Below are positions 3,852-35,219 of a stretch of 49,726 nucleotides of DNA, one piece after another. A program made the translations under genes and the position numbers. Each line of letters begins with the position of its first letter. Positions within the stretch are counted from its first letter, which is position 1. This stretch comes from Deltaproteobacteria bacterium (GTDB lineage Bacteria > Myxococcota > Myxococcia > SLRQ01): the NCBI GenBank assembly GCA_029210625.1, contig JARGFU010000030.1, positions 1-49,726 on the forward strand, written 5' to 3'. The notes under the pieces were generated by a model. That model did not search any database. It was not told the origin of the DNA and worked only from the letters and a program-made list of their open reading frames with translations.

Positions 3852-3854
3852 TTT

Positions 3855-4019
3855 TGGGCTTCGAGCTTCGAGCTTCGAGCTTCGAGCTTTGGGCTGTGAG
3901 CTTTGAGCTTCGAGCTGCGAGCTCATGGCTTCGAGCTATCAGCTTCCCGGATCCGGGGCCATGGGTCTCGCTTCGTGGCCGCCAGGCGCCCTCACAGCTC
4001 GCAGCTCACAGCTCGCAGC
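3855..4019. repeat. Heptad-repeat element 1 (two 7-bp arrays in opposite orientation)
   Basis: Thirteen consecutive 7-bp units (3855-3945) follow the consensus CGAGCTT, with the GGCT or AGCT core kept in every unit. After a 46-bp unique spacer (3946-3991) come four units alternating TCACAGC and TCGCAGC (3992-4019), which are the reverse orientation of CGAGCTG-type units. The element occupies nearly the whole gap between the divergent GT9 and GT4 genes and starts 3 bp from the proposed GT9 start codon. A related element lies at 33961-34093. Confidence 0.85.
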
Positions 4020-4061
4020 CGAAGACTGACAACCCCTCTCGCCCATGCGACTAATCGAGCC

Positions 4062-6769: not shown

Positions 6770-7795
6770 TCAGGCGGGCGGCGCCGCGGAGAGATCGTCG
6801 GGGGGCGGCCAGAGCTCGGCGGCGGGATCGACCCGCCGCTCGCCGAAGCGCGAGAGGACGACGGCCCCGGTGCCGGCGAGGGTGGCGAGGAGGAGGACCA
6901 GCCCGGCGGCGAAGCCGATGACCGGGATCTCGGCGAGGAGGCCGAAGCCGAAGAAGACCAGCATCCCGAGGACCAGCTCGCGGGCGGGCGTGCGCTTGCC
7001 CGGCGGGGAGAGGCGCCGCCCCACCCGCAGGGAGACGACGGTCCAGCCCAGCACGGCGGTGGCGAGGTAGGCGAGGAGGAGCACCGGCACCAGGAAGATG
7101 CCGACCACGGTCATCACCAGCAGGAGGGTCACCGGGAGGAACGCGATGAAGAGGAGCAGGCCGGCGAGGATCGACTTCGCGAGGTCGCCCTGCAGCGGCC
7201 GCCGCATCCGATCGATGCGCTTGGGCATGGCGACGATGAGCAGGAAGGCGAGGACCAGCACCGTCAGGTACTGCGCCGTGGTGGAGACGATGTCGCTGAA
7301 GAAGCCGGCCAGCCCGCGGCTCTCCTCGGAGTCGGGGATGATGATCATCTTCGCGGGCGGGCCGCCGTCGCCGTGGTGGTGGTGGCTGCGGCGGGAGGAG
7401 CCCACCCGCGAGCCGAGGACCTCGGCGCTCGGATCGACGTCGACGCTGCCGCCGAGCGCGGCGACGTCTCCGGTCACGGTGACGCCGGCCCCGATGGAGA
7501 CCGAGCCGCCCAGCGCCGTCACGTCGCCCTGCACCGTGGCGCCCTCCTCCACGCGCACGCTGCCGCCCATGGCGACCGCGTCGCCGGTGACGGTGGCGCC
7601 CTCCTCGATGACCACGCTGCCACCGAAGGAGACGGCGTCGTGCACCTCGTCGCCGGCTGCGACGGTGACGCTCTGTCCGTAGGAGATGCGATCGGAGCCC
7701 ACGGCGAGGACGCCGAGCTCGGCGGAGGCCGTGGCCGGCACGAGCAGGGCGGCCCAGGCGAGGGCGGCGAGGGGAAGGAGGCTGCGACGGGTCAT
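6770..7795 (-). CDS. Exported beta-helix (bactofilin-like) multi-pass membrane protein
   Basis: A 341-aa protein with a signal peptide ending about residue 25 (ATASA). Four near-identical short repeats follow, each reading like VEEGATVTGDAVAMGGSV, at about residues 55-125; this is the pattern of polymer-forming (bactofilin-type) beta-helix proteins. A histidine-rich linker (SHHHH, 138-141) leads to three or four membrane segments between about 175 and 305 and a short hydrophilic tail. The beta-helix would face the periplasm. It is the last gene of an ECF sigma/anti-sigma cassette (ATGA overlap with the anti-sigma gene) and is probably a target or accessory of that system. The biochemical role is unknown. 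Confidence 0.75.
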   Translation of the reverse strand: MTRRSLLPLAALAWAALLVPATASAELGVLAVGSDRISYGQSVTVAAGDEVHDAVSFGGSVVIEEGATVTGDAVAMGGSVRVEEGATVQGDVTALGGSVSIGAGVTVTGDVAALGGSVDVDPSAEVLGSRVGSSRRSHHHHGDGGPPAKMIIIPDSEESRGLAGFFSDIVSTTAQYLTVLVLAFLLIVAMPKRIDRMRRPLQGDLAKSILAGLLLFIAFLPVTLLLVMTVVGIFLVPVLLLAYLATAVLGWTVVSLRVGRRLSPPGKRTPARELVLGMLVFFGFGLLAEIPVIGFAAGLVLLLATLAGTGAVVLSRFGERRVDPAAELWPPPDDLSAAPPA

Positions 7796-32964: not shown

Positions 32965-32993
32965 ACCCTAGCCCGCAGCGCGACGGTGGTCAA
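32965..32993 (-). promoter_or_regulatory. lysS operon promoter (TTGACC-17-TAGGGT)
   Basis: On the minus strand TTGACC (32988-32993) is followed after exactly 17 nt by TAGGGT (32965-32970), a TAnnnT -10. The predicted start is about 32958, 44 nt before the lysS ATG. The -35 overlaps an ATG (32993) that would otherwise be a start for rnz, which favours the rnz start at 33035. Confidence 0.6.
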
Positions 32994-33034
32994 TGGCGTA
33001 CACTGCCCGCCTCGATCAACCCGCAAAACCCCCC

Positions 33035-33961
33035 ATGTCCGTCTTTCGACTCACCTTTCTCGGCACCTCGGCAGCCCAACCAACGGCCCGCCGAAATCTT
33101 TCCGCCACGGCCCTCCGGGTCCACGGAGACCACATCCTCCTGGACTGCGGGGAGGGCACCCAGCGCCAGATGCTGCGCTACGGGACCGGCTTCGCCACCG
33201 GCCTGGTGCTCTTCACCCACTTCCACGCCGACCACTACCTGGGGATCATCGGGCACCTGCGGACCCTGGCCATGAACGGCCGGGAGGCGCCCCTGACCCT
33301 CCACGGGCCCGGCCCCACCCTCCAGTCCCTCCTGGCCCGGCTCATCCACCTGGGCTTCCGGAACATGCCCTTCCCCCTGGAGCTCGAGACCCTGGAGGAC
33401 GGCCAGGTGCTCGACCGCGGGGCCTACACCATCCAGGCCGTCCGGATGCTGCACCGCACCCCCACCCTGGGCTACGTCTTCCGCGAGCCCCCGCGCCCCG
33501 GCCGCTTCGATCCGACGGCCGCCCGGGAGCTCGGGGTCCCCGAGGGCCCCCTCTTCGGGCGCCTGCAGAAGGGCGAGACCATCACCCTCCCCGACGGCAG
33601 GCAGATCGAGCCCGGGCAGGTCCTGGGTCCCTCCCGTCCCGGCCGCAAGGTGGCCTTCTCCGGGGACACCGGCCCCTGCGACGCCTTCGCCGAGGCCGCC
33701 GCCGGCGCCGACCTCATCGTCCACGAGTCGACCTTCGGGGACAGCGAGCTGATGCGCGCGAAGGAGACCACCCACAGCACGGCCCGCCAGGCCGGTGAGA
33801 TCGCCGCGCGGGCCGGGGCCCGGCAGCTGGTGCTGACCCACTTCTCCAGCCGCTACGACCACACCCCGGAGCTCCTCCGGGATCAGGCCGCCGAGGTCTT
33901 CGGCGGGGAGATCGTCTGCGCTCACGACGGGCTGACGATCGAGGTGCCCTATCGGGCTTGA
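33035..33961 (+). CDS. rnz: Ribonuclease Z
   Basis: RNase Z, 308 aa, a metallo-beta-lactamase fold endonuclease that trims the 3' end of precursor tRNA. The zinc motif HFHADHYLG (HxHxDH) follows VLFTH, the N-terminal FLGTSAAQPTARRNLSATAL is typical, and SGDTGPC, HESTF and TTHSTARQAGEIA with LTHFSSRY complete the site. The start is ambiguous: ATG at 32993 (322 aa) or 33035 (308 aa, family length); the latter is preferred. The stop codon lies on the first base of the heptad-repeat element, which separates it from the convergent prfB. Confidence 0.94.
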   Translation: MSVFRLTFLGTSAAQPTARRNLSATALRVHGDHILLDCGEGTQRQMLRYGTGFATGLVLFTHFHADHYLGIIGHLRTLAMNGREAPLTLHGPGPTLQSLLARLIHLGFRNMPFPLELETLEDGQVLDRGAYTIQAVRMLHRTPTLGYVFREPPRPGRFDPTAARELGVPEGPLFGRLQKGETITLPDGRQIEPGQVLGPSRPGRKVAFSGDTGPCDAFAEAAAGADLIVHESTFGDSELMRAKETTHSTARQAGEIAARAGARQLVLTHFSSRYDHTPELLRDQAAEVFGGEIVCAHDGLTIEVPYRA

Positions 33962-34093
33962 GCTGTCAGCTGTCAGCTATCAGCTCTGCCGTGCTGAACC
34001 GATCCACTGCGACCGATCCTCGGCCGAGACAACCACCGGCAGGCGCTCTTGGCTTCGGCCAGGCTGACAGCTGACAGCTGATAGCTGACAGCT
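33961..34093. repeat. Heptad-repeat element 2 with near-perfect terminal inverted repeats
   Basis: The left arm (33961-33985) has 3.6 heptads of AGCTGTC or AGCTATC type. The right arm (34062-34093) has 4.6 heptads of AGCTGAC or AGCTGAT type. The outermost 25 bp of the two ends are inverted copies with 23 of 25 matches. The 76 bp between the arms (33986-34061) are mostly unique, with a CTCGGCCGAG palindrome. The element fills the whole gap between the convergent rnz and prfB, beginning on the last base of the rnz stop and ending one base before the prfB stop. It could fold into a long cruciform or act as a two-way terminator. Confidence 0.88.
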
Positions 34094-35219
34094 CTAGTCG
34101 GACGGGGCGCCCTGCCCCATCAGGAAGGCCTGGATGAAGCCATCGAGGTCGCCGTCGAGCACCCGCTGGGGGCTGCCGTTCTCGAAGCTGGTCCGGTGGT
34201 CCTTCACCATCTGGTAGGGGGCCAGGACGTAGGAGCGGATCTGGGAGCCGAAGGAGATCTCGGCCTTGGAGGCCTCGACCTTCGCCCGCTCCGCCTCCCG
34301 CTTCTGGATCTCCAGCTCGTAGAGGCGGCTCTTGAGGATCTTCAGGGCCATGTCCCGGTTCTTGTGCTGGCTGCGCTCGTTCTGGCAGCTCACCACGATG
34401 CCGGTCGGCATGTGGGTCATCCGCACGGCCGAGGAGGTCTTGTTCACCTTCTGGCCGCCGGCGCCCGAGGCCCGGAAGACGTCCACCCGGACGTCCTCCT
34501 CCCGAACCTCGATGGCGATGTCGTCGTCGATCTCGGGGCTGACGTAGACCGAGGCGAAGGCGGTGTGGCGCCGGCCGGCGGCGTCGAAGGGAGACATCCG
34601 CACCAGGCGGTGCACCCCGGCCTCGGCCTTGAGGTAGCCGTAGGCGTAGTCGCCCTGGACGATGAGGGCGGCGGACTTGATGCCGGCCTCCTCGCCGTCC
34701 TGGCGGTCCGCCAGCTCCACCTTCCAGTCGTTGCGCTCGGCGAAGCGCCCGTACATCCGCAGGAGCATCTCGGCCCAGTCCTGGGCGTCGACCCCACCCG
34801 CGCCGGAGTTGATCGTGACGATGGCGTTGCGGCCGTCGTCCTCACCGGAGAGCATCCGCTGGAACTCCAGGGCCACGACCTGCTGCTCGCCGATCCGCAC
34901 CTGCTCGGCGACCTCGGCGTACTGGCTCTCGTCGCCCTCCTCGCGGGCGAGCTCGAAGAGCACCTCGGCGTCCTCGACGACCCCGCGGGCCTTCTCGTAG
35001 CCCGCGACGGTGGACTCCACCCGCGACTTCTCCTTGAGCAGGGTCTGCGCCGCGTTCTGGTCGTTCCAGAAGTCGGGGGCCGCGGCGAGCTTCTCTATCT
35101 CCTCCAGGCGAGCCTTGCGCGTGGGGAGGTCAAAGGTACCTCCCGAGCTCGTCGAGCCGGCGGGAGAGATCCTCGAGGCCGTCCTTGATCTCGGATGCGA
35201 TCAGCATGGGGAGCCTCAT
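34094..35219 (-). CDS. prfB: Peptide chain release factor 2, expressed by +1 programmed frameshift
   Basis: RF2, about 374 aa, recognises UGA and UAA stop codons. The C-terminal reading frame has the RF2 SPF motif (MSPFDAAGRRHTAF) and the universal GGQ (SGAGGQKVNKTSSAVR). The first 29 codons are in another frame and end GRYL at an in-frame UGA (35132-35130). The site GGGAGG-TAC-CTT-TGA-C matches the E. coli slippage signal; a +1 shift at CTT continues as D-L-P-T-R. The start ATG (35219) overlaps the lnt stop (ATGA); a second ATG lies at 35207. It is the last gene of the phoH-lnt operon. Confidence 0.95.
35129..35147 (-). promoter_or_regulatory. prfB programmed +1 frameshift site
   Basis: On the minus strand GGGAGG precedes TAC CTT TGA C. 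The internal Shine-Dalgarno-like purine stretch, the slippery CTT and the UGA stop followed by C match the RF2 autoregulatory element. When RF2 is scarce, the ribosome shifts forward at CTT and makes full-length RF2. Coordinates mark the slippery site and the SD-like stretch. Confidence 0.93.

Follow-up and report, generated by a model that had tools for sequence, protein, structure and literature searches.

A heptad-array hairpin between rnz and prfB as a probable non-coding member of a mobile family with IVP-coding relatives

The short interval between the convergent rnz and prfB genes on contig JARGFU010000030.1 of a Deltaproteobacteria bacterium (Myxococcota) is filled by a hairpin element. 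It probably belongs, as a non-coding and MITE-like copy, to a widespread family of mobile hairpins, the coding members of which carry an IVP gene. Elements of this family end in inverted arrays of degenerate 6–8-nt repeats, and in coding members one PF05635/TIGR02436 gene lies between the arrays. Coding and non-coding copies have shared ends in two genomes. Because such copies are dispersed, and because Nostoc plasmids have sites empty of coding and non-coding relatives, a MITE-like derivative is the best reading of the element. The window denotes the whole 49,726-nucleotide stretch of DNA analysed.

Anatomy of the element

The preliminary description had reported that the terminal 25 bp are inverted copies built from heptads, and direct reading of the sequence confirmed this. 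The arms at 33961-33985 and 34069-34093 agree at 23/25 positions, and the right array is one unit longer (GGCTGAC, 34062-34068; Table 1). The left array begins with the final base of the rnz TGA stop codon (33959-33961), and the prfB stop codon occupies 34094-34096 on the minus strand. The 133-bp element therefore exactly fills the gap between the two genes, as had been claimed. No target site duplication is visible at this copy.

Table 1. Features of the window discussed in the text
Feature	Position	Strand	Content	Remarks
Left heptad array	33961..33985	+	forward units AGCTGTC AGCTGTC AGCTATC AGCT	sequence read directly
Possible degenerate left outer unit	33955-33958		GGCT	inside rnz 3' end
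Spacer / hairpin loop	33986..34061	+	non-coding	
Right inverted heptad array	34062..34093	-	GGCTGAC AGCTGAC AGCTGAT AGCTGAC AGCT	
rnz-like reading frame (ribonuclease Z)	32993..33961	+	upstream neighbour	relatives by tblastn
prfB-like reading frame (release factor 2)	34094..35020	-	convergent neighbour	
Second window element	about 3854-4023	.	forward array ~3854-3944, spacer, reverse array ~3992-4023	divergent gap

Folded as RNA, the element forms a single long stem (-79.8 kcal/mol, z = -5.8). Arms of 25 nt with at least 23 pairs, 30-150 nt apart, occur in the window only at the rnz-prfB locus. In 278 kb of the source genome one locus has such arms, and it is another array element; one Markov-shuffled 278-kb sequence had none. 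As to the suggestion that the element may end transcription, a strong hairpin does lie between convergent genes, but a terminator-like T-tract follows it on neither strand. A terminator and promoter scan of the element found none.

The second window element follows this plan too, with different unit variants, so the shared architecture first noted in the window holds. Both spacers had been called different and unique. They do differ from each other, but the spacer of the rnz-prfB element has homologues among the spacers of further copies in the source genome (see below). The nearest genome, at 59-77% protein identity, has a convergent rnz-prfB pair free of heptad arrays, but is too distant for its gap to count as an empty site.

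Heptad arrays in the source genome

The source genome comprises 6.1 Mb in 64 contigs and is 98% complete; its family is represented by one other genome in our collection. The genome-wide search that had been proposed for the same architecture, run as four AGCT cores at 7-nt spacing, returned 71 matches, and the reversed pattern returned 1. Among 144 other genomes of the class there were 5 matches, in two genomes (3 and 2 overlapping matches, each within one array). AGCT heptads are abundant in the source genome and private to it.

Rates were obtained from a 1.1-Mb sample of the genome picked regardless of arrays, plus targeted stretches. Arrays of at least three AGCT cores numbered 30 at a spacing of 7 and 4 at a spacing of 6 in the 1.1-Mb sample, which held none at spacings of 5 or 8-11. 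The units are oriented, with AGCT followed by [AGT][CT][GC] on one strand. Over three unit families, array pairs are convergent (forward, then reverse) in 22 cases and in the opposite order in 1. A hexamer family, CGTGTA/CGTGGA, follows the same convergent plan (C1:22514, C15:95165, C16:119888 and locus L018 of the source genome), and one of its copies has an IVP gene.

By gene calls from a basic script that relies on codon usage, 23/25 clusters of AGCT arrays are intergenic. Thirteen of the 25 lie in convergent gaps, which make up 46/494 of all gaps (p about 7e-8); the other 12 lie elsewhere, four of them in divergent gaps. Targeting may account for this preference, as may employment of the element as a terminator or selection that removes harmful insertions.

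We compared 23 spacers by local alignment (Smith-Waterman) against shuffles, and related pairs score well above the shuffles. The spacer of the window element aligns with that of the copy at C11:119690 when one of the two is inverted (score 32, 67% over 76 nt) and with that at C4:122830 (score 21), the maximum of 600 shuffles being 15. The element at C10:15858 has the 5' end of its spacer in common with the window copy, with shared blocks visible in the alignment. Units in both arms are of the G class in the C11 copy and of the C class in the window copy, which suggests a faster turnover of arrays than of spacers, with the two arms changing together. The G/C class of the two arms agrees in 27/34 pairs (p = 0.007). 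Exact co-matching of the variable positions was rejected (0.736 vs 0.711 +- 0.024 in shuffles); the G/C class alone agrees.

IVP genes between inverted arrays

PF05635 is the four-helix-bundle family of the 23S rRNA IVP, and the source genome has three copies. The IVP gene at L018 is flanked by inverted GTACGT hexamers and that at L017 by inverted CGGCTSA heptads. The copy at L016 starts with GGCTACGAGCTACGAGCTGCGAGCT and finishes with AGCTCGCAGCC, which are ends of the AGCT family. In the CGGCTSA family, three non-coding elements and the L017 copy have common outer flanks, with differences (CTTTCGAGG...CCGACACGGCT / AGCCGTGTCGG...CCTCGAAAG). Two of these three non-coding elements also match part of the L017 IVP leader (scores 21 and 20; shuffle maximum 15).

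IVP loci were scored for an upstream tandem array matching the reverse complement of a downstream one, with flanks taken from different loci as the control. Among Myxococcota, 8/21 loci lie between inverted arrays against 7/420 cross-locus controls. A second set, mostly from Gemmatimonadota, gave 9/33 against 4/1056; for these two sets combined, p is about 2e-19. A third set, mostly from cyanobacterial plasmids, gave 7/12 against 4/132. The total is 24/66 IVP loci between inverted 6-8-nt arrays, so that about two thirds do not pass, and among ordinary genes of the source genome the count is 0/403. The coding relatives encode PF05635 only and no transposase; the preliminary description had not noted them. 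With the canonical IVP of L016 as query, 27 plasmid records were recovered; the divergent L017 protein found none among phages and plasmids.

The units at IVP loci vary (GTTCCTG, CCGGCTA, GTGCGTG, AGTAGGG, GTCACCT, AGCTAAA and others). Arrays that are part of the element predict that the unit flanking an IVP gene is also scattered through the genome of that gene. For GTTCCTG, the unit at the IVP gene of genome G058, there are 28 matches in G058 and 0 in 144 other genomes. Of the copies inspected, three are short and non-coding, and run AGTTCCTGGTTCCTG...CCAGGAACCAGGAACT, the ends of the G058 IVP copy. A chance second case came from TCGANNN arrays, which served as a control: they peak in genome G091 (55), where the IVP gene is flanked by GAGTCGA arrays.

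IVP genes also occur as pairs, tail-to-tail or head-to-head and 70-260 bp apart, in arrays of period 6-7 (L225 and L226 in G018, L237 and L238 in G154, L239-L242 in G190). Three cyanobacterial IVP genes (L370, L372, L368) lie within CRISPR-Cas blocks, in cas10/cmr3 and cas6/cas4 intervals.

Empty sites in Nostoc plasmids

Nine Nostoc plasmid records have one gene block in common. At its first junction, pC052_D, pNPM1 and pNsp_a carry an IVP element with GGAGTCA arrays, five other plasmids including pNsp_c have the genes about 3 nt apart, and p057_A has an unrelated gene. One gene further on, pNsp_c carries an IVP element with the unit GGGAAAA, and pC052_D is empty there. A non-coding element of the GGAGTCA family occupies a third junction in five plasmids, and at least two (pNsp_b, pC052_D) lack it. 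Where it is present, the reading frame upstream takes its 3' end from the element, an arrangement that resembles the end of rnz in the window. The target repeat at three Nostoc junctions is 0-3 bp.

In pNPM1 (L379, about 1240-1425) a 182-bp non-coding heptad element interrupts an IVP gene that is intact in pC052_D and pNsp_a. An IVP element also lies between nrdB and nrdA in Nostoc edaphicum and not in Calothrix NIES-4105. These plasmids demonstrate insertion of the element class as a unit for the Nostoc relatives, and not for the window copy. The window element had been described as non-coding and perhaps mobile. Its dispersed copies, the homology of spacers in either orientation and these empty sites for the class all favor that description.

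Comparison with known systems

The closest known system is the 23S rRNA intervening sequence (IVS) with an S23/IVP frame, as in Leptospira and Coxiella, the protein of which belongs to the same family as that of the coding relatives here. IVS elements encode the IVP protein and form a stem-loop with inverted ends, and mobility has been proposed for them (PMC4990558). The present elements share with the IVS (PMC4990558) complementary ends that form a stem-loop and a sporadic distribution. Unlike the IVS, which sit in helices 9, 25 or 45, they are free-standing between protein genes, as the window copy is between rnz and prfB; their ends are arrays of 6-8-nt units and most of them are non-coding. 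The IVP/S23 frame that characterizes the IVS is present in the relatives, and the window copy itself is non-coding. Excision by RNase III is a further hallmark of the IVS.

Heptamer arrays that are confined to a lineage and lie between genes include the cyanobacterial STRR. The TAACTGA arrays of Beggiatoaceae and cyanobacteria were described as direct repeats that precede start codons, a single indirect repeat aside (PMC4679880). They resemble the present arrays as lineage-specific intergenic 7-nt units, and TCAGTTA resembles TCAGCTR, but a link to IVP genes or insertion is absent from their description (PMC4679880).

The window element is MITE-like in being short and non-coding with terminal inverted repeats (133 bp, arms 23/25), and in having many dispersed copies with the ends of a longer coding copy (L016 has AGCT-family ends). 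It is unlike a MITE in that the coding relative has no transposase and the ends consist of tandem units whose sequence changes from one lineage to another. No clear target duplication was seen. REP/BIME elements with RAYT transposases are likewise short palindromes between genes, frequently located where genes end. The present elements differ from these in their heptad-array ends, and the Y1 transposase loci of the source genome have no AGCT heptad arrays. PF05635 further resembles Avd of diversity-generating retroelements (PMC10053308), and the IVP protein of G058 has a weak NCBIfam match to Avd. Unlike a genome with such retroelements, the source genome (98% complete) has no match to the reverse transcriptase RVT_1.

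The preliminary placement of the element outside the common named repeat classes agrees with an Rfam search, in which the window element gave no match, rRNA included. In the open-licence literature we found no paper that links such ends with an encoded protein or joins IVP genes with tandem arrays; an earlier description is possible. The 23S rRNA IVS (PMC4990558) and heptamer arrays as direct repeats upstream of genes (PMC4679880) have already been described separately.

Proposed mechanism and alternatives

From the comparisons above, we propose that copies insert as a hairpin-bounded unit with a target repeat of at most 1-3 bp, and that they would be retained at permissive sites, gene ends among them. 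In trans, the array hairpin may be recognized by the IVP protein, which is pentameric and related to Avd of retroelements; in the structure of the IVP protein Xcc0516 (PDB 2GSC), five four-helix bundles form a ring (PMC4990558). Such a trans-acting binder would fit the excess of non-coding copies. Cutting and joining would be carried out by a putative enzyme from outside the element. A reverse transcriptase was rejected as this cellular engine since RVT_1 is absent from the source genome; movement by a retro route would call for some other enzyme. The arrays appear to be renewed rapidly by slippage, with both arms of a copy kept alike, which would give each lineage a unit of its own.

The element might instead be a bidirectional terminator or mRNA-end stabilizer kept for its function, its spread reflecting selection at gene ends and not movement. 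The excess of clusters in convergent gaps (13/25, where such gaps are 46/494) and a stem that is stable in either direction speak for this. We nevertheless consider it unlikely: the window element has no T-tract, 12/25 clusters lie elsewhere with 4 in divergent gaps, the AGCT unit is private to 1/145 genomes, and array pairs flank a protein gene as well. The element may still be used as a terminator after its insertion. A known hairpin-acting transposase of the IS200/IS605 or RAYT type could also move the element, with the IVP gene as a passenger. Hairpin ends and the lack of a clear target duplication are reminiscent of IS200/IS605 biology, and Y1 transposase matches are present in the source genome. 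None of its four Y1 loci is flanked by AGCT heptad arrays, which led us to reject RAYT/Y1 transposases as partners, and it is an IVP gene without a transposase that recurs between such arrays in three phyla. We regard a passenger role as still less probable than a purely functional hairpin.

Least probable of all is an origin without movement of the arrays, which would be products of slippage that template switching at small palindromes had turned into inverted pairs. IVP genes would insert or survive in such hairpins, and the window element would be a grown hairpin. The units are indeed tandem and variable in copy number, the AGCT core is itself palindromic, and 23S rRNA IVS copies replace the loops of pre-existing helices (PMC4990558). 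Against this stand one degenerate unit at dozens of loci in a single genome, coding and non-coding copies with precise shared ends (and, in one family, outer flanks), homologous spacers at different sites, and the joint arrival of arrays and interior at empty sites.

Beyond the mobile, MITE-like reading of the window copy, we advance a broader account tentatively, giving it a little less than an even chance. The elements would form a separate mobile class in at least three phyla (Myxococcota, Gemmatimonadota, Cyanobacteriota), having no transposase of its own, with array hairpins renewed by lineage, IVP acting in trans and mostly non-coding copies; the 23S rRNA IVS would be its rRNA-dwelling members. 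Two old puzzles, the IVP proteins and the heptad arrays specific to lineages of myxobacteria and of cyanobacteria, are offered one explanation by the findings. IVP four-helix-bundle proteins are widespread and structurally solved, and have no known function. The long-standing guess that 23S rRNA IVS are mobile becomes testable, because genome sequences reveal empty sites, ends held in common and non-coding derivatives. If movement needs a hairpin of renewable repeats and not a fixed end sequence, this would be an unusual form of recognition for a mobile element.

Other repeats

Four 57-bp tandem repeats occupy 7412-7667 of the window, probably in the coding stretch of a repeat-built protein. 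Also present in the source genome is another small element, ~166 bp long, whose inverted ends of 23 bp read TAAACCAGAAATCACGATTCCCGA...TCGGGAATCATGATCTCTGGTTT. Seven copies, 90-98% alike, were found in 1.1 Mb (among them C4:22552-22717 and C5:110244-110409, with others on C1 and C3), and two copies sit within the loops of heptad elements.
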